A stretch of 64,000 nucleotides of DNA from Arthrobacter sp. 260. Its GTDB lineage: Bacteria > Actinomycetota > Actinomycetes > Actinomycetales > Micrococcaceae. Positions 16,221 through 24,958 of the stretch are shown here, piece after piece (position 1 is the first letter of the stretch; every line of letters starts with the position of its first letter). Position numbers and translations under genes: made by a program. The notes beneath the pieces were generated by a model, which worked only from the letters and a program-made list of their open reading frames with translations, had not been told where the DNA came from and made no database searches. The DNA is taken from positions 1 to 64,000 of the forward strand of contig NZ_JABFOE010000006.1 in assembly GCF_013116745.1 (NCBI RefSeq), given 5' to 3'.

Positions 16221-17002
16221 CAGAGTCCTTTCGGGCGGGCGACGTGTTCAACGACGCGCCCAATCCAGTCGACCAGGAGGGCGAGCAGGGCCACGAGGAC
16301 CGAGCCGACCACCAGGACGCTGACAAGGTTGAGGTTGACTCCGGTAATGATCAGAATGCCCAGGCCACCGCCATTGATGAATGCTGCGAGCGCTGCGGTG
16401 CCGACGAGGAGGACCAGCGCGGTGCGGATCCCCGCGAGCATCACCGGGACCGCCAGGGGAAGTTCCACCCTGAACAGCACGGCTAGGGCACTCATGCCCA
16501 TGCCCCGCCCTGCTTCGACCAGCCGTTCGTCCACCTGGTTGATGCCCACCATGGTGTTGCGCAGGACCGGCAGCAGCGCGTAGAGCACCAGTGCGGTGAT
16601 CGCCGCGTTGAAGCCGAACCCCTGCCAGGAGGCGAGGAGCACGATCAGGCCGATCGCGGGAGCTGCCTGGCCCACGTTGACGACGGCGAGCACCGGTCCG
16701 GTCAGCCGCCGGAATGGACCGCGGGTCAGCACGATCCCCAGCGGAATCGCGATCAGCAGCACGATCACTGCCGATACCGCCGTCAGGGCGAGGTGTTCGA
16801 GGGTGTAACCGAGGAGGGAATCGGGGTTCAGGGTGTTGAGCTCGGTCTCCGACAGGTCTGCCGTCAGCGCCCAGGCCACCAGGGCAGCGAGGGCCAGCAG
16901 GATTCCAGCCAGCTGGTAGATCAGCGGGCGCCAGGAGGGTCCGGCTACATCCGATTGGGCGGCGAGTGCCTGGGGAGTCTGGGCGGGCGCGGCAGCGCTC
17001 AC
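16220..17002 (-). CDS. Osmoprotectant ABC transporter permease (OpuCD/OpuCB type)
   Basis: 260 residues with five to six helices. The coupling-loop pattern VDERLVEAGRGMGMSALAVL followed by ELPLAVPVMLAGIRTA is diagnostic of the OpuB/OpuC/YehW family. Compared with its partner permease it has an extra cytoplasmic leader. The start overlaps the ATPase stop by 4 bases, indicating coupling. Confidence 0.87.
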   Translation of the reverse strand: MSAAAPAQTPQALAAQSDVAGPSWRPLIYQLAGILLALAALVAWALTADLSETELNTLNPDSLLGYTLEHLALTAVSAVIVLLIAIPLGIVLTRGPFRRLTGPVLAVVNVGQAAPAIGLIVLLASWQGFGFNAAITALVLYALLPVLRNTMVGINQVDERLVEAGRGMGMSALAVLFRVELPLAVPVMLAGIRTALVLLVGTAALAAFINGGGLGILIITGVNLNLVSVLVVGSVLVALLALLVDWIGRVVEHVARPKGL

Positions 17003-18255
17003 TGCCCGTTTCCTTCGGTGACTGCCTGCAGGGTTCCGGTGTTGACTCCCACCGGACGTCCGGAGGAGTGCGCCGACCGGGCGTGCGTGTGGGCGCGTCC
17101 GATCGCATCCATCACCGTCTCGACGTCGATCACGCCCAGGAAGGCGTCCCGCTTCCCCGTGACGAGGGCAGCGCCGGCGCTGGAGACCAGCATGGTGTCC
17201 AGCGCGTCATTGAGGGTCGCGCGGTCGCCGACCACCGGGAGTTTGGCGTCACGGTCGTCGGTAACCCGGTCCAGCCGGGTGAGCTGGCGGCGGGTGAGCC
17301 ACTGGATGGGGCGGTTCTTCCCGTCGACGATCACTGCGTGGTCGTGCTGGGCCTGGTCGAGCCGGGAGAGGACATCGCTGGCAAGGTCGCCGCTGCTGGC
17401 CACCACGGCGTCGGCCAGGTCCACCTCGTTGACCCGGGTCAGGGTGAGCTGCTTCAGGCCGGCACCGGAACCGATAAAGTTTTCGACAAACTCGTTCGCT
17501 GGGTTCGCGAGGATCCTTTCGGGGGTGTCGTACTGCACCAGCTGGGCTCCGTCGGTGAAGATGGCAATCCAGTCGCCGAGCTTCACTGCCTCGTCGAAGT
17601 CGTGGGTCACGCAGACGATCGTTTTCTGCAGTTCGGCCTGGATGTTCAGCAGCTCATCCTGGAGCCGCTGACGGGTGATCGGGTCCACGGCGCCGAACGG
17701 CTCATCCATCAACAGGACCGGGGGGTCCGCTGCGAGCGCGCGGGCCACCCCCACCCGCTGCTGCTGCCCACCGGAGAGTTCCTTGGGGAAACGGTCCCGG
17801 TACTGGGCAGCGTCCAGGGACACCAGCTCCAGCAGCTCATCGACCCGGGCGGCGATCCTGTCCTTGCTCCAGCCGAGCATCTTCGGCACGATCCCAATGT
17901 TCGCTGAGACAGTCATGTGGGGGAACAGGCCACCAGCCTGGATGACATAGCCGATCCGGCGTCGCAGGCTGTCCCCGTTGATGTCGGTGACGTCGTCGTC
18001 GTCCAGGACGATCCGTCCCTCAGTCGGCTCGATGAGCCGGTTGATCATTTTGAGGGTGGTGGTTTTGCCGCAGCCCGAGGGGCCAACCAGCATGACAATC
18101 TTACCGGCGGGAATTTCCAGGGTGAGACCGTCCACCGCCGGGCTGTCCTGCCCCGGGTAGCGTTTGGTGACCTTGTCCAACAGGATGCTGGCCCCGGTAA
18201 TGGCGTTCCCGGGCGTCCCGGAGTTGTCGGTTGCTGTGGATTGGATCTCAGACAC
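16999..18255 (-). CDS. Osmoprotectant ABC transporter ATP-binding protein with CBS pair (OpuCA type)
   Basis: 418 residues. The ATPase domain shows Walker A GPSGCGKTTT, signature LSGGQQQRVGVARAL, Walker B VLLMDEPFGAVDP and the H-loop THD. The C-terminal about 150 residues carry two CBS repeats (LADAVVASSGDLASDVLSRL onward and KLPVVGDRATLNDALDTML), which in OpuA/OpuC ATPases sense ionic strength or c-di-AMP and gate transport. Which signal applies here is unknown. It overlaps both flanking permease genes. Confidence 0.9.
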   Translation of the reverse strand: MSEIQSTATDNSGTPGNAITGASILLDKVTKRYPGQDSPAVDGLTLEIPAGKIVMLVGPSGCGKTTTLKMINRLIEPTEGRIVLDDDDVTDINGDSLRRRIGYVIQAGGLFPHMTVSANIGIVPKMLGWSKDRIAARVDELLELVSLDAAQYRDRFPKELSGGQQQRVGVARALAADPPVLLMDEPFGAVDPITRQRLQDELLNIQAELQKTIVCVTHDFDEAVKLGDWIAIFTDGAQLVQYDTPERILANPANEFVENFIGSGAGLKQLTLTRVNEVDLADAVVASSGDLASDVLSRLDQAQHDHAVIVDGKNRPIQWLTRRQLTRLDRVTDDRDAKLPVVGDRATLNDALDTMLVSSAGAALVTGKRDAFLGVIDVETVMDAIGRAHTHARSAHSSGRPVGVNTGTLQAVTEGNGQ

Positions 18256-18889
18256 GGATACCTCGCGGGGTGGTTAGTCGGCCGAGGCCGATGAGCAGAA
18301 CGTCGAGTATTAGGGCAAGAATGATGACGGCGATGACGCCGGTGGCAACGGACTCCAGGGCGTTGGCGCCGCCCAGGCGGGACAGCCCGGAGAAGATGAA
18401 GCCTCCCAGCCCGGGGCCCAGTGCATAGGCGGTGATCGCGGCGATGCCCATCACCATCTGCGCCGAAACGCGGATCCCGGCGAGGATCACCGGCCAGGCC
18501 AGCGGCAGCTCCACCTGCAGGAGCGTGCGGAAGCGGCTCATGCCGATCCCCCTGGCGGATTCCACCACGCCGTGGTCAATGCCGGTCAGGCCGACAACCG
18601 CGTTCCGAAGGATCGGGAGCGCTGCGAAGAACGACACCACGATCACGGCGGGCGTGACACCGAACCCAAACGGAGCGATCATGAGCCCAATGAAGGCGAA
18701 GGACGGGATGGTCAGGCCGACGGCGGAGACGCTATTGGCGAGCGACCTGAAGAGGTTGCTGCGGTACACGAGCGCCGCGAGTCCCACCGCAATAACGGTT
18801 CCGAGGATCAGGCATTGGACCACCAGGGAAAAGTGCTGCCAGCTAGCAAACAGGATTTGAGGCAGCCGGTCTCCAAAGAAATCCAACAA
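18248..18889 (-). CDS. Osmoprotectant ABC transporter permease (OpuCB type)
   Basis: 213 residues, the normal size for this family, with the EAA-like loop IDHGVVESARGIGMSRFRTL then ELPLAWPVILAGIRVSAQ. It is the first gene of the operon and overlaps the ATPase start by 8 bases. The 280 bases upstream are shared with the divergent Asp23 operon. Confidence 0.87.
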   Translation of the reverse strand: MLDFFGDRLPQILFASWQHFSLVVQCLILGTVIAVGLAALVYRSNLFRSLANSVSAVGLTIPSFAFIGLMIAPFGFGVTPAVIVVSFFAALPILRNAVVGLTGIDHGVVESARGIGMSRFRTLLQVELPLAWPVILAGIRVSAQMVMGIAAITAYALGPGLGGFIFSGLSRLGGANALESVATGVIAVIILALILDVLLIGLGRLTTPRGIRV

Positions 18890-18997: not shown

Positions 18998-19023
18998 GGA
19001 ACCATCACGCCATGGTCACGGTT
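18998..19023 (+). promoter_or_regulatory. Candidate SigR/ECF-like promoter for the Asp23 operon
   Basis: GGAAC (18998-19002), an 18-base spacer and GTT (19021-19023) reproduce the actinobacterial sigma-R/sigma-H spacing GGAAT-N18-GTT with one change. It faces the Asp23 operon and would give a leader of about 140 bases. An 8-bp inverted repeat, GGTCACGG (19014-19021) and CCGTGACC (19064-19071), overlaps it. No gene is apparent in the remaining 18890-19169 region. Confidence 0.4.
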
Positions 19024-19169
19024 TGCCGTCGATGTCAGTGTGAGGCACATCACCTTGAGGTGACCGTGACCTTTGCCCCGGACGGAGCGTCTTACCTGCA
19101 GGAGCGCCTCTTTTGGGCGCCCCCGCATCACCGATTTATCCACCGACTTCAGCATCAAGGAGCATCACG

Positions 19170-19691
19170 ATGAGCACCCAGCCACAGGACAAAAAGCCGA
19201 CCACGACGGGCTCCACCCCTCAGGCGCTCGCCAACCGCCAGCCCGCTACTGCGGCAGCCACGGCACCCCATGGGAAACGTCAGCACGACGGCGGGCGCGG
19301 CGCGACGGCCATCGCTGACAACGTGGTGGCGAAGATCGCCGGCATTGCTATCCGCGACATCCCCGGCGTCCATGCACTCGGCGGGGGAGCTGCGCGCGCG
19401 CTCGGTTCGATCCGCGGCGCTGTCGGCCAGAAGGAAGACCACACCCAGGGCATCAGTGTCGAGGTCGGCCAGACCCAGGTGGCAGTCGATGTCACCCTCG
19501 TCGTCGAGTACCCGCACCCGCTGAAGGAGGTGGCGGATCAGGTCCGCGACGCCATCTACTCTGCCGTGGAGGACCTCGTCGGCATGGAGGTCACCGAGGT
19601 GAACGTGACCATCAGTGACATCCACGTCCCCGGTGATGACACCCGCGACGGCAACGCCGAGTCCGCCCCGACCGAATCCCGCGTCTCGTGA
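19170..19691 (+). CDS. Asp23/Gls24 family envelope stress protein
   Basis: 173 residues. A polar N-terminal tail of about 45 residues precedes the Asp23 domain: AIADNVVAKIAGIAIRDIPG, the loop VHALGGGAARALGS, and VAVDVTLVVEYPHPLKEVAD followed by VTEVNVTISDIHV. AAGGAG eight bases upstream fixes the ATG. Asp23 proteins in Firmicutes sit on the inner membrane face via AmaP and respond to envelope stress; the same setting is inferred here from the downstream DUF2273 and anchor-like genes. First gene of an eight-gene coupled operon. Confidence 0.88.
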   Translation: MSTQPQDKKPTTTGSTPQALANRQPATAAATAPHGKRQHDGGRGATAIADNVVAKIAGIAIRDIPGVHALGGGAARALGSIRGAVGQKEDHTQGISVEVGQTQVAVDVTLVVEYPHPLKEVADQVRDAIYSAVEDLVGMEVTEVNVTISDIHVPGDDTRDGNAESAPTESRVS

Positions 19692-19879
19692 GCCCCACGA
19701 CAGCCGGTATCGCCACCGGAGCCACCCTGGCCTTCGCTGCACTGATCTTCGGTTTTTGGGGTTTCGTGCTGGTCGCCGTGTTCATGGTGATCGGTGCCGT
19801 TGCCGGTCGCACCGCCGAAGGTAAGCTTGACCCAGGCTCAGTCCTGGATGCCCTGCGGGGCCGGCGTTCGGCGTCGTGA
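19688..19879 (+). CDS. DUF2273-like small membrane protein
   Basis: 63 residues, GTG start overlapping the previous stop (GTGA). One long hydrophobic hairpin (about residues 8-40) is followed by a short basic tail. Size and position next to Asp23 match DUF2273, which accompanies Asp23/AmaP genes in many Gram-positive bacteria. Probably helps tether Asp23 proteins to the membrane (inference). Confidence 0.7.
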   Translation: MSPTTAGIATGATLAFAALIFGFWGFVLVAVFMVIGAVAGRTAEGKLDPGSVLDALRGRRSAS

Positions 19880-20253
19880 CCGCTACCAACCGGAGCGCCG
19901 CTCCGGGACGCACCGGGCACACCCGGATCACCAAGTCGGCACTGACCCACACCGCCGAGGCCGTGGCAGCAGCCACCTTCGGCGTCCCCCGGAGTGAGGT
20001 GCGGGTCGTGCTGGCCGACGACGACGGCGCCCTCGGCATCACGGTCTCGGTCCCCCTTCCCGCGCCCATCCTCCTGCAGGCGGCACAGGATCCCTCAGCG
20101 GTGGAACACGGCGGCGGAACGGTGTTTGACCGAGCGGACCGCGCCCGGAACGGAATCCGTGAAACAGCCCAGCAGGTCACCGGGTCCCAGGTGGGCCGGA
20201 TCAATATCCGGCTGACCGGGATCCGGCCTCCCGCGGAAAGGAAACTGGCATGA
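19876..20253 (+). CDS. Asp23-like protein (second copy)
   Basis: 125 residues, GTG start overlapping the DUF2273 stop. It resembles a short Asp23 domain: RITKSALTHTAEAVAAATFG, a strand LGITVSVPLP, and a C-terminal VGRINIRLTGI strand. No membrane segment. Weaker match than the first gene, so the assignment rests partly on context. Confidence 0.6.
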   Translation: MTATNRSAAPGRTGHTRITKSALTHTAEAVAAATFGVPRSEVRVVLADDDGALGITVSVPLPAPILLQAAQDPSAVEHGGGTVFDRADRARNGIRETAQQVTGSQVGRINIRLTGIRPPAERKLA

Positions 20254-20831
20254 GCGAAACACTTCACACCCGCCGGCTTCTCCGCCGCGAAACGCATTCC
20301 TCACGTGCCGTCGCGTCGGTGAGTGCCGCCGTCGTCCTGCTGGCCGGGTTGGCGTGGCTGGGCACCGAGGCCGTTCTCTCAGTGGTGAACCAGCCACCAC
20401 TGATCATCAGTCCACCCGCCCTGCTCAACTGGGCGGCAGGCCTCCCCAGCACCGTCCTCCCCTGGGGGCTGACCCTCGCCGGTCTGGGTCTGGCACTGGT
20501 GGGACTGATGTTTCTGCTGGTCGCCCTGACACCGGGCACCCGAGACCTCCATGTGGTGGGCCGGGACCGGACGGCCGTGGTGGTCGATTCGGAAGTCATC
20601 GCGGCTGCCGTGTCCCGCCGAACCCGCCAGGAGGCGGGGCTGGACCCGGACCAGGTGTCCACCCGGGTGGACCGGCGCCGCATCACCGTCGACGTCCGCC
20701 CGACCAGTGGGTCTCCTCTTGACGAAACGCTCATCCGCGCGGCAGTCGAGGACGAACTCTCCGGGTACAGGATCCGTCCTGAACCAGGCGTTAGGATCAA
20801 CCTCAGGCATGAAGGAGCACTAGGCATATGA
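20250..20831 (+). CDS. DUF6286 family membrane protein
   Basis: 193 residues with two membrane helices (about 20-45 and 70-93) and a cytoplasmic C-terminal domain of about 95 residues that alternates strands and helices (TAVVVDSEVIAAAVSRRT, then RRITVDVRPTSG). This layout matches DUF6286, found in actinobacterial Asp23 clusters. The soluble part is Asp23-like in pattern. Start overlaps the previous gene as ATGA. Confidence 0.7.
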   Translation: MSETLHTRRLLRRETHSSRAVASVSAAVVLLAGLAWLGTEAVLSVVNQPPLIISPPALLNWAAGLPSTVLPWGLTLAGLGLALVGLMFLLVALTPGTRDLHVVGRDRTAVVVDSEVIAAAVSRRTRQEAGLDPDQVSTRVDRRRITVDVRPTSGSPLDETLIRAAVEDELSGYRIRPEPGVRINLRHEGALGI

Positions 20832-21427
20832 GTTCCACCCATCGCTGGCTCAACCGGACCCTTCTGGTCCTGCTGGGGCTGGTACTTCTCGCCGTCGGCG
20901 CGCTCACCGCTGCTGCCGGCCTGCTCCCCGAGGTAGCCGGTACCTGGACCTCCGTGGGCACAGCCGCTGTGGAGGGCCTCCCCGGCATTCTGGCGGCCGC
21001 TCCCCTGAACACCGAGACCAGCTGGTGGACCGTCGCCGCGCTGGCCCTGGTGCTGGCGTGCGCTGCCCTGCTGTTCGGGTGGATTGCCTCGCAGGGCGGC
21101 GGGCGCACCCGCACTCTGGCGCAGCAGGACACCGGCGCGGGTACCACCACCGTCGAGACCTCCCTCGTGGAGGACGCTCTCCGTTCGAGCCTCGAGGGGA
21201 ACGGGCAGATCCTGTCCGTCGGAGTGACCTCCTGGCGGGTACGTCGGCAGACCGGCCTTCGCGTCCGGGTCCAGCCGCGCCGCGGGGCGTCTCCCGCAGC
21301 CGTGGTCGCCGCGGCCGAGGAGGCGATCAGCGGTCTGGACACCCTGCTTGGCGTGCGCCACCCCATCCTCGTCAGCGTCCACGCGGGGGCCCGGGCGCGC
21401 CTCACCCGCACGCGGAGAGTCGATTGA
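20828..21427 (+). CDS. AmaP-like membrane anchor protein of the Asp23 cluster
   Basis: 199 residues: N-terminal helix (about 10-32), second helix (about 66-86), then a soluble domain of about 110 residues. The arrangement is that of the alkaline-shock membrane anchor AmaP, which binds Asp23 to the membrane. Sequence identity to AmaP cannot be judged by eye, so the name rests on topology and neighbourhood. ATGA overlap with the upstream gene. Confidence 0.65.
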   Translation: MSSTHRWLNRTLLVLLGLVLLAVGALTAAAGLLPEVAGTWTSVGTAAVEGLPGILAAAPLNTETSWWTVAALALVLACAALLFGWIASQGGGRTRTLAQQDTGAGTTTVETSLVEDALRSSLEGNGQILSVGVTSWRVRRQTGLRVRVQPRRGASPAAVVAAAEEAISGLDTLLGVRHPILVSVHAGARARLTRTRRVD

Positions 21428-21990
21428 CGGCCCCGGCCCGCCCCCGTCTGAACCTCAACGATGCCCATGACTCGTTCCTGGTGGAGCGCGCGGCGGACGG
21501 CGACGTCGCCTCCTTCGAGGCCATTGCACGCCGGTACGGGCCGCTGATGCGCGGCTACGCCCGGCGACTCACCGGTTCGGCGGCGGACGCCGACGACGCC
21601 GTGCAGGAGACCCTGCTCCAGGCCTGGAACCAGCTCGGCGACCTGCAGGATGGCGCCGCCGTCAAGCCGTGGCTCATGCGCATCTGCGGCCGGAAAAGCA
21701 TTGACCTGATCAGGAAACGCCGGCCGGTGGACGACCTTGACGACGTCGAACCACCCGATCCGGCACCCGGTCCGGAGCGGGCCGTCGAACAGGGCTCTCA
21801 GATGCAGTCCCTGGTGGCAGCACTCCGGAAGCTTCCGGACGAGCAGCGCCAGTGTTGGGTGCTCAAGGAGATGGGCGGGCAATCCTACGAGGACATCGCC
21901 GAAACGCTGGAGATCAGCACCGACAGCGTTCGCGGCAGGCTATCGAGAGCACGAACCACCCTGATGAAGGAAATGGAGGACTGGCGATGA
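21424..21990 (+). CDS. RNA polymerase sigma factor, sigma-70 ECF-like
   Basis: 188 residues. Region 2 runs from LVERAADGDVASFEAIARRY through DADDAVQETLLQAWNQLGDL, followed by the WLMRICGRKSIDLIRKRR segment. Region 4 is LRKLPDEQRQCWVLKEMGG then YEDIAETLEISTDSVRGRLS. The TTG start at 21424 overlaps the upstream stop (TTGA). Its own stop overlaps the anti-sigma start (ATGA), the usual sigma/anti-sigma stoichiometric coupling. It probably directs this operon and others in response to envelope conditions (inference). Confidence 0.88.
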   Translation: MTAPARPRLNLNDAHDSFLVERAADGDVASFEAIARRYGPLMRGYARRLTGSAADADDAVQETLLQAWNQLGDLQDGAAVKPWLMRICGRKSIDLIRKRRPVDDLDDVEPPDPAPGPERAVEQGSQMQSLVAALRKLPDEQRQCWVLKEMGGQSYEDIAETLEISTDSVRGRLSRARTTLMKEMEDWR

Positions 21991-22586
21991 GCAACGACAT
22001 CCCTGATCCCGGTTGCGGCCACAGCCTCGACGAGCTTGAAGAGTACCTGCGGACCGGTCAGTCGACAGCAGAGCAGCACTACGAACGCTGCCCCGAATGT
22101 CAGGCAGGGTTGGCTGGGCTGCGTGCGCTGCACCGGCTGACCGGCGAACTCGCGGCGGCCGATACCGAACAGGCAGGGTCGGCTGACGAGCCCTGGCTGC
22201 AGTCAATTCTGGGCAACCTGCGGCTGGAGATGCGGTCCGGTCGGAGTATTCCGCTGTCGGGCGAGGACCCGGAGGACTCCTTCGCTCAGACCGAGGGCAG
22301 CCTCGTCGCGTTGATCCGCTCGACCGGCGACGACGTCGCCGGTGCCACGATCGGCAAATGCCGCCTGCACGGGAACATCACCGAGCCGGGCGGCGAGGTC
22401 CGGATCGAGGTAAACGTGACTGCATTCTTCGGCTACCCGCTCCCGGCCATGGTCGAGTCCCTCCGGACACGGATCGCCGACACGGTGAGAACCCAGACGG
22501 AGCTGAACCTGACCGACGTCGACGTATCGGTGACCGACGTTCACGAGCGCGTGGGTGGGGACCCGAGAGGAGAGGTGAATGAGTAA
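21987..22586 (+). CDS. Zinc-binding anti-sigma domain fused to an Asp23-like domain
   Basis: 199 residues. The first about 60 residues resemble a ZAS anti-sigma domain: CGHSLDELEEYLRTG then HYERCPEC, the H-x3-C-x2-C zinc motif. No membrane helix follows. Instead, residues about 100-195 look like Asp23: a VALIRSTGDDVAGATIG helix, VRIEVNVTAFFGYPLPAMVE and LTDVDVSVTDVHE. Placed directly after the sigma gene and coupled to it, it is probably the cognate anti-sigma, with the Asp23 domain as sensor or tether. Confidence 0.75.
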   Translation: MSNDIPDPGCGHSLDELEEYLRTGQSTAEQHYERCPECQAGLAGLRALHRLTGELAAADTEQAGSADEPWLQSILGNLRLEMRSGRSIPLSGEDPEDSFAQTEGSLVALIRSTGDDVAGATIGKCRLHGNITEPGGEVRIEVNVTAFFGYPLPAMVESLRTRIADTVRTQTELNLTDVDVSVTDVHERVGGDPRGEVNE

Positions 22587-22908
22587 GGACCAACTGGCAC
22601 TCCGGGTCGAGGAGATCATCACCGGGGTCGAAGGAGTGGCTGGCCTGTACCCGGCACGTTCGGCGATCCTGGCGGGGATTGCCAGAACCTTAGGCGCCGA
22701 TGAAACTCTGGTGGACGTTGACGTTTCCGGCTCCCGGCTGGCGGTCAGGGCCCGGATCGCCGCACTCACTGACACGGCGGCGCCGCGACTGGTCCGTGAG
22801 GTGGCCGCAGCCATCCGGGCCGGACTGGCCCGGGAACCGGATACCAGCTCCCTGCAGGTGACCGTGGAGATCACGGTCTGTGGGTTCGCGGACACGCAGT
22901 TCTCCTAG
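22579..22908 (+). CDS. Asp23-like small protein closing the envelope-stress operon
   Basis: 109 residues, no membrane segment. It follows the Asp23 pattern: LALRVEEIITGVEGVAGLYP, a central strand VDVDVSGSRLAVRARIAAL, and C-terminal LQVTVEITV. Overlaps the anti-sigma gene by 8 bases with GAGAGG upstream of the ATG. A strong hairpin terminator follows 21 bases later. Function beyond likely membership in the Asp23 complex is unknown. Confidence 0.65.
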   Translation: MSKDQLALRVEEIITGVEGVAGLYPARSAILAGIARTLGADETLVDVDVSGSRLAVRARIAALTDTAAPRLVREVAAAIRAGLAREPDTSSLQVTVEITVCGFADTQFS

Positions 22909-23010: not shown

Positions 23011-24336
23011 TTAACCGCCGAAGAGTGGTGCGACCGCCCCGACAAGCTGGTTGATGCCGAGCACAATGAACAGCAGCGCGACAACCGCCAGGGCGATATT
23101 CGTGTGGAGTTTGTTCGCATACTTCCTTGGGATCCGCTTACCGTTCAGCAGGCCCAAAAGAGTGACAGCGAGGAATGGCATGAACAGTGATCCGAGGACA
23201 CCGTACGCGAGGATCAGTCCGATCGGCTGGCCCAGGGCGAACAGGATCATCGGCGGGAAGGTCAGCCACAGGACGTAGAACCTGAAGTACTTGCCGCCCA
23301 CCCGGGTGTCCGGGTGGCCGGATTCCTTGCCGCGGATGTTGCCCCAGAAGTCGGCGAACATCAGGGAGACACCGTTCCAGACGCCGATGATCGAGGAGAA
23401 GGAGGCGGCCCAGAAGCCGACCAGGAACCCGATCCCGACGACGTCGCCGTACTCATCGCGGAGCACGGTGGACAGGTCGAGCAGCCCTTCGTCACCGGCG
23501 CTCAGGCTGACCCCGGCGGAGCGGACCACTTCGGCGCCGACGATGAGCATCGCGATGACGAAGATGCCGGTCATCACGTATGCCATCGAGTTGTCGATGC
23601 GCATCACCTTCATCCACTTGGGCGTGTACCAGCCCTTTTCGCGCAACCAGTAGCCGTAGGCGGCGAGCGTGATGGTGCCGCCAACACCGCCGGCGAGCGC
23701 CAGCGTGTACAGCAGGCCACCCTCGGGGATGATCGGCACCAGTCCGGTGACCATTTCCGGAAGGTTCGGCGCCGCGATGATGGCCAGGCCCACCACGGTG
23801 ATGAACATGATGCCGACCAGGGCGGCGGTGATCTTCTCGAAGGTGGCGTAGCGGCCGAACCAGACCATCACGAAGCCGGCGAGGCCCATTACGATGGCCC
23901 ACGCCCAGAGCGGGAAGATCGGGAACAGCGCGGCGAGGGGCAGCGCGGCGCTCGACATCGCCGTCGCACCGTAGACGAAGCCCCAGATCATGATGTACGG
24001 CCCGAAGTACCAGGTGGTCCATTTGCCCAGGGACCGCCAGCCCTCGAAGATCGTGTAGCCGGTGGCCAGGGTAAACCGCCCGGCACCCTCGACGAGGATG
24101 ATCTTCAGGAAGACACCGAGGATGACAGCCCAGAGGAGGCCGTACCCGTACCGGGAACCGGCCACCAGGGTGGCCACCATATCGGCGGCGCCGACACCGG
24201 TGGCGGCCACCACCAGACCTGGTCCGACGATCTTCCATTTGGCGGGCTTGCCGCCGTCGTCGTCCACGCGGTCGGCGTGGTTCAGTTTCTCGGCAGGCAC
24301 GTGGCCCGACTTCTCTGGGGGCATCTCGCCGGGCAT
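23011..24336 (-). CDS. Nramp-related transporter lacking the canonical metal-site motifs
   Basis: 441 residues and about eleven helices of the LeuT-like Nramp fold. Helix 1 begins GPGLVVAATGVGAADMVATL; the DPGN metal motif of canonical Nramp is replaced by GAAD. In helix 6 the MPH motif is missing too (TITLAAYGYWLREKG). Family assignment is from overall pattern and length; substrate may not be Mn2+/Fe2+ and could be Mg2+ or something else. ATG at 24336 has AAGGA upstream. Its 211-base upstream region has no gene and contains a 6-bp stem, GCCCGT / ACGGGC, near 24366-24388. Confidence 0.75.
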   Translation of the reverse strand: MPGEMPPEKSGHVPAEKLNHADRVDDDGGKPAKWKIVGPGLVVAATGVGAADMVATLVAGSRYGYGLLWAVILGVFLKIILVEGAGRFTLATGYTIFEGWRSLGKWTTWYFGPYIMIWGFVYGATAMSSAALPLAALFPIFPLWAWAIVMGLAGFVMVWFGRYATFEKITAALVGIMFITVVGLAIIAAPNLPEMVTGLVPIIPEGGLLYTLALAGGVGGTITLAAYGYWLREKGWYTPKWMKVMRIDNSMAYVMTGIFVIAMLIVGAEVVRSAGVSLSAGDEGLLDLSTVLRDEYGDVVGIGFLVGFWAASFSSIIGVWNGVSLMFADFWGNIRGKESGHPDTRVGGKYFRFYVLWLTFPPMILFALGQPIGLILAYGVLGSLFMPFLAVTLLGLLNGKRIPRKYANKLHTNIALAVVALLFIVLGINQLVGAVAPLFGG

Positions 24337-24547
24337 CAAAGATCCTTCAGGTTTGGGGGCGGGGAGCCCGTGCCGTCAGGGAACGGGCCCTAGGTATCCT
24401 CTCATGGATCGAGGTTCCGCCTGTGAGCTGACCCACATGATCGCAGGGCCCTGCAGCCAGTTTCATGGCCGTGTGTCAGCGGCCCTAGCGCGCGGGACCG
24501 GCCGGACGTAGGCTCGAAACGGAAAAGTCCAGCGCGAAAGGAACATC

Positions 24548-24958
24548 ATGGGTTTCACAGCAAGTCAGGTGCCGCTTCGGTTGGCTACCGGTGCTTTTAT
24601 TCTGAACTCTGGGATCGGCAAGCTTCACCTCGATCCGGGTTCCGCCGCCTACCTTCAGGGGATGGCCGCGAAGGCGATTCCCCAGGTGTCCCAGCTGGAA
24701 CCGGAGAAGTTCGGCAAGTATCTTTCCTACTCCGAGATCGGAATCGGCGCAGCATTGCTGTCTCCTTTCGTTCCCGCACGGCTGGCGGGTCTCGCCCTGG
24801 GCGCATTTGCCGGTGGCACCATGCTGATGTACTTCCGCACACCGGAGATGACCGAATCCGATGGCATCCGTCCCAGCCAGGAGGGCACCCCCGTAGCGAA
24901 GGACATCTGGATGGTCGGCATTGCGCTGGCCCTGATCCTCGGTCGCAAGAAGAAGTAG
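24548..24958 (+). CDS. DoxX-like small membrane protein
   Basis: 136 residues with about four short hydrophobic segments and the helix-1 pattern RLATGAFILNSGIGKLHLD reminiscent of DoxX-like proteins. It ends in a basic GRKKK tail. AAGGA seven bases upstream supports the ATG. Function unknown; it stands alone between the Nramp-like gene and the glutaminase. Confidence 0.65.
   Translation: MGFTASQVPLRLATGAFILNSGIGKLHLDPGSAAYLQGMAAKAIPQVSQLEPEKFGKYLSYSEIGIGAALLSPFVPARLAGLALGAFAGGTMLMYFRTPEMTESDGIRPSQEGTPVAKDIWMVGIALALILGRKKK

Follow-up and report, generated by a model that had tools for sequence, protein, structure and literature searches.

An eight-gene Asp23-family operon of Arthrobacter sp. 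260 encodes an ECF sigma factor and a predicted Asp23-domain anti-sigma factor

An operon of eight coupled genes, several of them for Asp23-like proteins, lies at positions 19170–22908 of the window, by which we mean the whole 64,000-nucleotide stretch of Arthrobacter sp. 260 DNA analyzed here (NZ_JABFOE010000006.1, positions 1 to 64,000). The genome (3.9 Mb, 193 contigs) is labeled G000, and L, G and C numbers denote loci, genomes and contigs throughout. All eight open reading frames, designated A, D, B, 6, P, S, Z and 8 in operon order, are on the plus strand, and in the window sequence every downstream gene starts within the preceding one. The overlaps are GTGA at 19688 and 19876, ATGA at 20250 and 20828, TTGA at 21424, ATGA at 21987 and finally the 8 bases ATGAGTAA at 22579–22586. 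The eight genes and seven overlaps listed in a preliminary description of this stretch were all found again at the same positions.

The first five genes form a quintet, A-D-B-6-P. The soluble protein A (19170–19691) belongs to the Asp23 family (PF03780, 2.6e-26), its 92.6 bits lying over the curated Pfam cut-off, and D (19688–19879) is a small DUF2273 membrane protein (PF10031, 3.3e-6; 27.4 bits against a cut-off of 25.4) that is hydrophobic over residues 5–45. The DUF6286 protein 6 (20250–20831; PF19803, 2.7e-10; 41.1 bits, cut-off 35) has transmembrane (TM) segments at residues 17–39 and 68–98 and a distantly Asp23-like C-terminal domain. P (20828–21427) also carries two TM segments (6–38 and 64–92) and an Asp23-like C-terminal domain; it matches the AmaP model NF033218 of NCBIfam at 5e-10, but with 39.4 bits remains below the 55-bit cut-off, and we call it an AmaP-like membrane anchor because of this full-length weak match, its two TM segments and its position. 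TM segments are present in D, 6 and P and in none of A, Z and 8. The domain matches and TM segments thus bear out the DUF2273-, DUF6286- and AmaP-like membrane company proposed in the preliminary description, with P below the AmaP cut-off.

The remaining Asp23-like proteins are more diverged. B (19876–20253) stands at the second Asp23 position of the quintet, and the soluble protein 8 (22579–22908) is encoded directly after Z. Neither window copy had a significant Pfam match, PF03780 included, while PF03780 was matched by 24 of the 32 position-equivalents of B and by 8 of the 34 position-equivalents of gene 8; both are therefore called Asp23-like only. Profile–profile comparison related A to B (1.2e-6), to 8 (1.1e-8) and to the C-terminal domain of Z (7e-12), P to the same domain of Z (6e-7), and 6 to both P (3.4e-11) and the Z domain (3.7e-5). 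The controls (D, S and shuffled alignments) gave 0.04 or worse, except for the N-terminal against the C-terminal part of Z, which had been cut with an overlap. An AlphaFold model of 8 showed an alpha-beta-beta-alpha-beta core (predicted local distance difference test, pLDDT, 89.5), and that of Z four N-terminal helices and an alpha-beta-beta-alpha-beta C-terminal domain (pLDDT 84.3). The PDB fold matched by both models was that of the C-terminal domain in cation-diffusion transporters (MamM, for example), a model-based match that tells fold and not function; no sequence relative of A was found in the PDB. As judged by profile, an Asp23-like domain occurs in six of the eight proteins. Pfam, profiles and position-equivalents are therefore in line with the earlier count of several Asp23-like proteins (at 19170, 19876 and 22579) plus an Asp23 part in the anti-sigma protein, and the fold of the extra copies came out favorably, for 8 and Z by model and for B by profile only. 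Quintets elsewhere (L234:2878-3768, L236, L241, L242 and L243) are followed by a protein of 270–327 aa that combines an N-terminal Asp23 domain with long amphipathic repeats, has a weak apolipoprotein-like match and is reminiscent of desiccation proteins.

Between P and 8 lie the genes for a sigma factor and its predicted antagonist. S (21424–21990, with a TTG start within P) has 188 aa and contains sigma-70 regions 2 and 4 only (PF04542, 1.4e-16; PF08281, 5.3e-13; PF08281/PF04545 for region 4), with no region 3 or 1.1, and scores above the cut-off of NCBIfam TIGR02937 (sigma70-ECF). Its region content, its size of about 190 aa and the adjoining anti-sigma gene are those of an extracytoplasmic function (ECF) sigma factor. 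Z (21987–22586) is a predicted soluble anti-sigma factor whose C-terminal half matches PF03780 (1e-6; 29.6 bits, cut-off 28). Its N-terminal helical domain contains a zinc/thiol motif, H-x3-C-x2-C (C10, H31, C35 and C38; 22014–22100), which by sequence and model puts Z among the zinc anti-sigma (ZAS) factors, with zinc and sigma binding predicted. These four residues were invariant in 16 sequences of the genus, and H-x3-C-x2-C was kept in 34 of 40 class-wide sequences; the Z homologues of L095, L096 and L099–L102 lack the full motif and retain the S-Z arrangement. In 39 of 40 homologous loci the S and Z genes overlap by 4 or 10 nt (4 nt in the window), and a relative, Arthrobacter sp. Bz4, has a Z that is 79% identical. 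The best PDB sequence match of the N-terminal domain was weak (E 0.014), namely 3hug chain B, titled only 'probable conserved membrane protein' in the match list, which we take to be the anti-sigma factor RslA of Mycobacterium tuberculosis. RslA and RsrA of Streptomyces have the N-terminal H-x3-C-x2-C anti-sigma motif in common with Z, whereas RslA also has a membrane segment plus an extracytoplasmic part and the second half of Z is a soluble Asp23 domain. Because the Foldseek and VIA-align alignments covered mainly the Asp23 domain (residues 100–188), the helical half of Z was not placed by fold.

Across the class, Z was matched in 37 of 297 genomes, and in 33 of the 41 S-Z loci the genes for DUF2273 and Asp23 proteins lay no more than about 5 kb away, with either order and either orientation represented. 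Since the loci were collected through Z and not through the quintet, this linkage is not a search artefact. The window arrangement, with the quintet followed by S-Z-8, was also found in L040, L041, L093, L094, L099, L100 and L116, S-Z-8 comes first in L097 and L098, and the remaining linked loci are divergent; gene order that recurs in other genomes is more than chance. An Asp23-like gene directly follows Z in 34 loci (one wrong entry excluded), and gene 8 was not detected in L109, L110 and L112–L115. Locus synteny thus shows the sigma gene to be no chance neighbor and upholds the idea, raised in the preliminary description, of a dedicated ECF sigma factor tied to Asp23/AmaP-type genes, across Actinomycetes. 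In a tree of A genes, which had few columns and many open forks and from which only this grouping was used, the window A grouped with A of L094, a locus of the same gene order from another genus of the family.

Further investigation of G000 showed a second such locus (L038, C150:128000-142000), in which S-Z-8 diverges from A-D-A-6-P under the same promoter motif, making cross-regulation of the two sigma factors possible, and a third quintet, on C105, that has no sigma gene. Many genomes in the genus carry a sigma-less Asp23-DUF2273 operon that lacks the promoter motif (L039 and L022–L037) and is likely to be a housekeeping copy. In L117–L120, Asp23 quintets adjoin a gene for a divergent Asp23-domain protein, and both a sigma factor and the promoter motif are absent. 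Orphan S-Z-8 genes without a quintet occur in three genomes of the genus (L042, L043 and L044), and in L044 they are directly followed by a gene for a 136-aa membrane protein that by eye resembles the one encoded at window 24548–24958.

The operon is headed by a predicted ECF-type promoter, CGTGAC-N17-CGTCTTA, at 19065–19094 of the plus strand (-35 at about 19065–19070, -10 at about 19088–19094), 76 bp upstream of A. It emerged when 6-mers and dyads were counted without a preset pattern in the regions before A, where GCGTGA and CGTCTT stood at a fixed spacing, and is expressed in strict form as CGTGA[C/G]-N16-17-CGTCTTA. A mid-stringency form, CGTGA[CG]-N14-19-GTC[TC][TA], was present upstream of A in 24 of 35 sigma-linked operons vs none of 18 sigma-less ones, and in 84 of 7000 random windows (1.2%) of the same loci, these counts being made on related, non-independent loci and on the loci in which the motif was discovered; for these reasons the genome scans below are the better test. 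Where S is the first gene (L097 and L098), the motif precedes S. The self-regulation proposed in the preliminary description accordingly finds its counterpart in a conserved promoter. An earlier promoter candidate, GGAACC-N-GTT at 18998–19023, is conserved in the three closest relatives, yet GGAAC occurred in 18 of 40 loci vs 37% of random windows, and was dropped in favor of CGTGAC/CGTCTTA because it was not enriched over all loci. Upstream of the promoter, a block GGAACC..TCACGC..GGTCACG (window 18998–19021) is conserved in L040 and L041. Within it, GGTCACGG (19014–19021) is the reverse complement of CCGTGACC (19064–19071) at the -35 element, and the pair is a possible operator.

The strict motif had three matches in G000: the window operon, the C150 operon and a csbD gene, where it lies 60 bp upstream of the gene for a 59-aa CsbD protein (PF05532, 1e-14). 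A near-identical pattern had 18 matches in 38 genomes of the genus vs 14 for the reversed control. Assigned by inspection of genes, with the remaining Asp23 sites assigned by locus positions, 14 of the 18 belonged to a stress gene (11 Asp23, 2 csbD and 1 PRC-barrel), and all 14 were in genomes with S-Z; the other four had no convincing gene. The PRC-barrel gene (PF05239), a further predicted target, follows its motif at 98 bp (L130; G015 C131). In G000, G005 and G009, the genomes of the genus in which the window-type operon was found, csbD is preceded by the motif, while none of 25 csbD genes from genomes without detected S-Z has it. Raw counts in these three genomes (7 vs 20 for the reversed pattern) were not above control, and the case for the regulon consequently rests on the location of the matches. 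In a second genus (119 genomes), mostly unused in discovery (of the matching loci only that of G159 had been used, plus a few genomes), a strict pattern had 12 matches vs 0 in the control, all of them 46–79 bp upstream of Asp23 (11) or csbD (1). A tighter, order-wide pattern (149 genomes) had a single match, already in the discovery set, and was uninformative. The three genomes that carry orphan S-Z-8 were searched as well; two of them contained matches, 8 in all.

Gene content, coupling, linkage and a common promoter are established by the sequence, and the operon probably represents a stress circuit in which an ECF sigma/anti-sigma pair regulates its own operon, with an Asp23 complex as its basis. 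In such a circuit, RNA polymerase carrying S would read the promoter at 19065–19094 and transcribe the whole operon together with at least one csbD gene elsewhere; comparative genomics makes transcription of its own operon and csbD by S a well-supported prediction. Z would use its anti-sigma-like N-terminal domain to bind S and hold it inactive, as suggested by the overlapping genes, the domain type and the motif. A, B and 8 are soluble Asp23-like proteins. P and 6 are two-TM proteins, and since their cytosolic ends are Asp23-like too, they could anchor an Asp23 assembly at the inner face of the membrane, in a manner analogous to AmaP in Staphylococcus aureus. Z may dock on the assembly through its own Asp23 domain, and membrane damage or water loss would disturb the assembly and alter the hold of Z on S. 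This docking and sensing step is the least certain, and stress might be sensed either at the zinc/thiol site or through docking of Z on the Asp23/AmaP assembly at the membrane. The products would rebuild the assembly and supply more Z, closing a feedback loop. A more specific version, which we advance only tentatively, is that Z uses its Asp23 domain to join a membrane-anchored Asp23 polymer, with the sigma factor stored on the scaffold and scaffold integrity as the stress signal; if true, such sensing differs from that of proteolyzed membrane anti-sigma factors, partner switches and zinc thiol switches.

Several observations weigh against an autoregulated circuit of this kind. The loose motif was absent before A in 8 of 35 sigma-linked operons (two of these, L097 and L098, have it before S), and no such motif precedes S in the orphan loci L042–L044, for whose sigma factors no targets were found, the genes downstream of the motif matches being unexamined. 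Docking of Z on the Asp23 assembly is suggested directly by nothing more than a domain in common. In the second genus, just one of the 10 new Asp23 sites lies next to S-Z, and a different ECF sigma gene stands beside two of them, implying that S acts in trans there or that another sigma factor reads the site. Together with the motif-less orphan loci, these operons are what could be cited for a promoter that is read by another sigma factor altogether, with S having other targets and S-Z merely traveling with Asp23 genes. We regard this as improbable, given that the 14 assigned sites of the genus are all in S-Z genomes, that sigma-less Asp23 operons lack the motif, and that the motif shifts to S where S comes first. 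A wholly unrelated neighborhood of sigma pair and Asp23 operon might be argued from the three genomes with S-Z-8 and no quintet, but it is contradicted by the linkage seen in 33 of 41 loci, which covers both orders and both orientations, and is extremely improbable.

Other explanations concern how Z is relieved. Z could act mainly as an RsrA-like zinc/thiol switch, in which S is freed when C10/H31/C35/C38 are oxidized or lose their zinc, and the Asp23 domain serves only to dimerize or localize Z. In keeping with this are the ligands invariant in the genus and largely kept across the class, and the weak match to the presumed ZAS factor RslA. Six loci nevertheless keep the S-Z arrangement without the full motif, redox sensing is not a property of many zinc anti-sigma factors, and the targets predicted here comprise Asp23, CsbD and PRC-barrel genes rather than genes of thiol defence, which makes such a switch rather unlikely as the main mechanism. 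We are similarly doubtful about a partner switch, in which 8, or free A or B released from the assembly, serves as an anti-anti-sigma factor, freeing S by binding to the Asp23 domain in Z. The Asp23-like gene directly after Z in 34 loci and the profile relationship among 8, A and the C-terminal domain of Z are consistent with it, and the loci in which gene 8 was undetected argue against it.

ECF286 and ECF292 have been listed as adjoining soluble Asp23-family proteins that are predicted anti-sigma factors, without experimental data or further discussion (PMC8999054), so the ECF–Asp23 anti-sigma pairing is already catalogued and not new. Z is likewise a soluble Asp23-family predicted anti-sigma factor beside an ECF sigma factor (PF03780, 29.6 bits, no TM segment), and the present operon, likened to these groups by gene context alone, adds the full eight-gene arrangement, the Asp23 paralogues, the promoter and the predicted csbD target. 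A literature search of partial coverage found no description of the promoter or the csbD link. The operon is a real, widespread and uncharacterized variant of ECF/anti-sigma control. In S. aureus, Asp23 oligomerizes, is anchored by AmaP and has a role in envelope stress, both proteins being encoded, as here, in one operon (PMC6954212). Unlike the window operon, asp23-amaP has no sigma or anti-sigma gene of its own. It is under SigB, and Asp23 and CsbD are among the targets of the SigB general-stress regulon of Bacillus and Staphylococcus. Where SigB is governed by the RsbW/RsbV switch, an ECF sigma factor with its own anti-sigma factor appears to control Asp23 and CsbD here, which suggests that Actinomycetes put these SigB targets of Firmicutes under a dedicated ECF sigma factor.

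The operon connects Asp23-family proteins with a transcription switch whose promoter is defined and whose predicted regulon is small, comprising Asp23 operons, csbD and, in one species, a PRC-barrel gene. Desiccation of Curtobacterium induced Asp23 and CsbD along with two unspecified sigma-factor genes, and the paper drew no link between them (PMC12029717). The operon itself is flanked on the minus strand by genes at 16999–18889 and 23011–24339 that, as read from the sequence, we presume to encode an osmoprotectant-type ATP-binding cassette transporter and an Nramp-type metal transporter.

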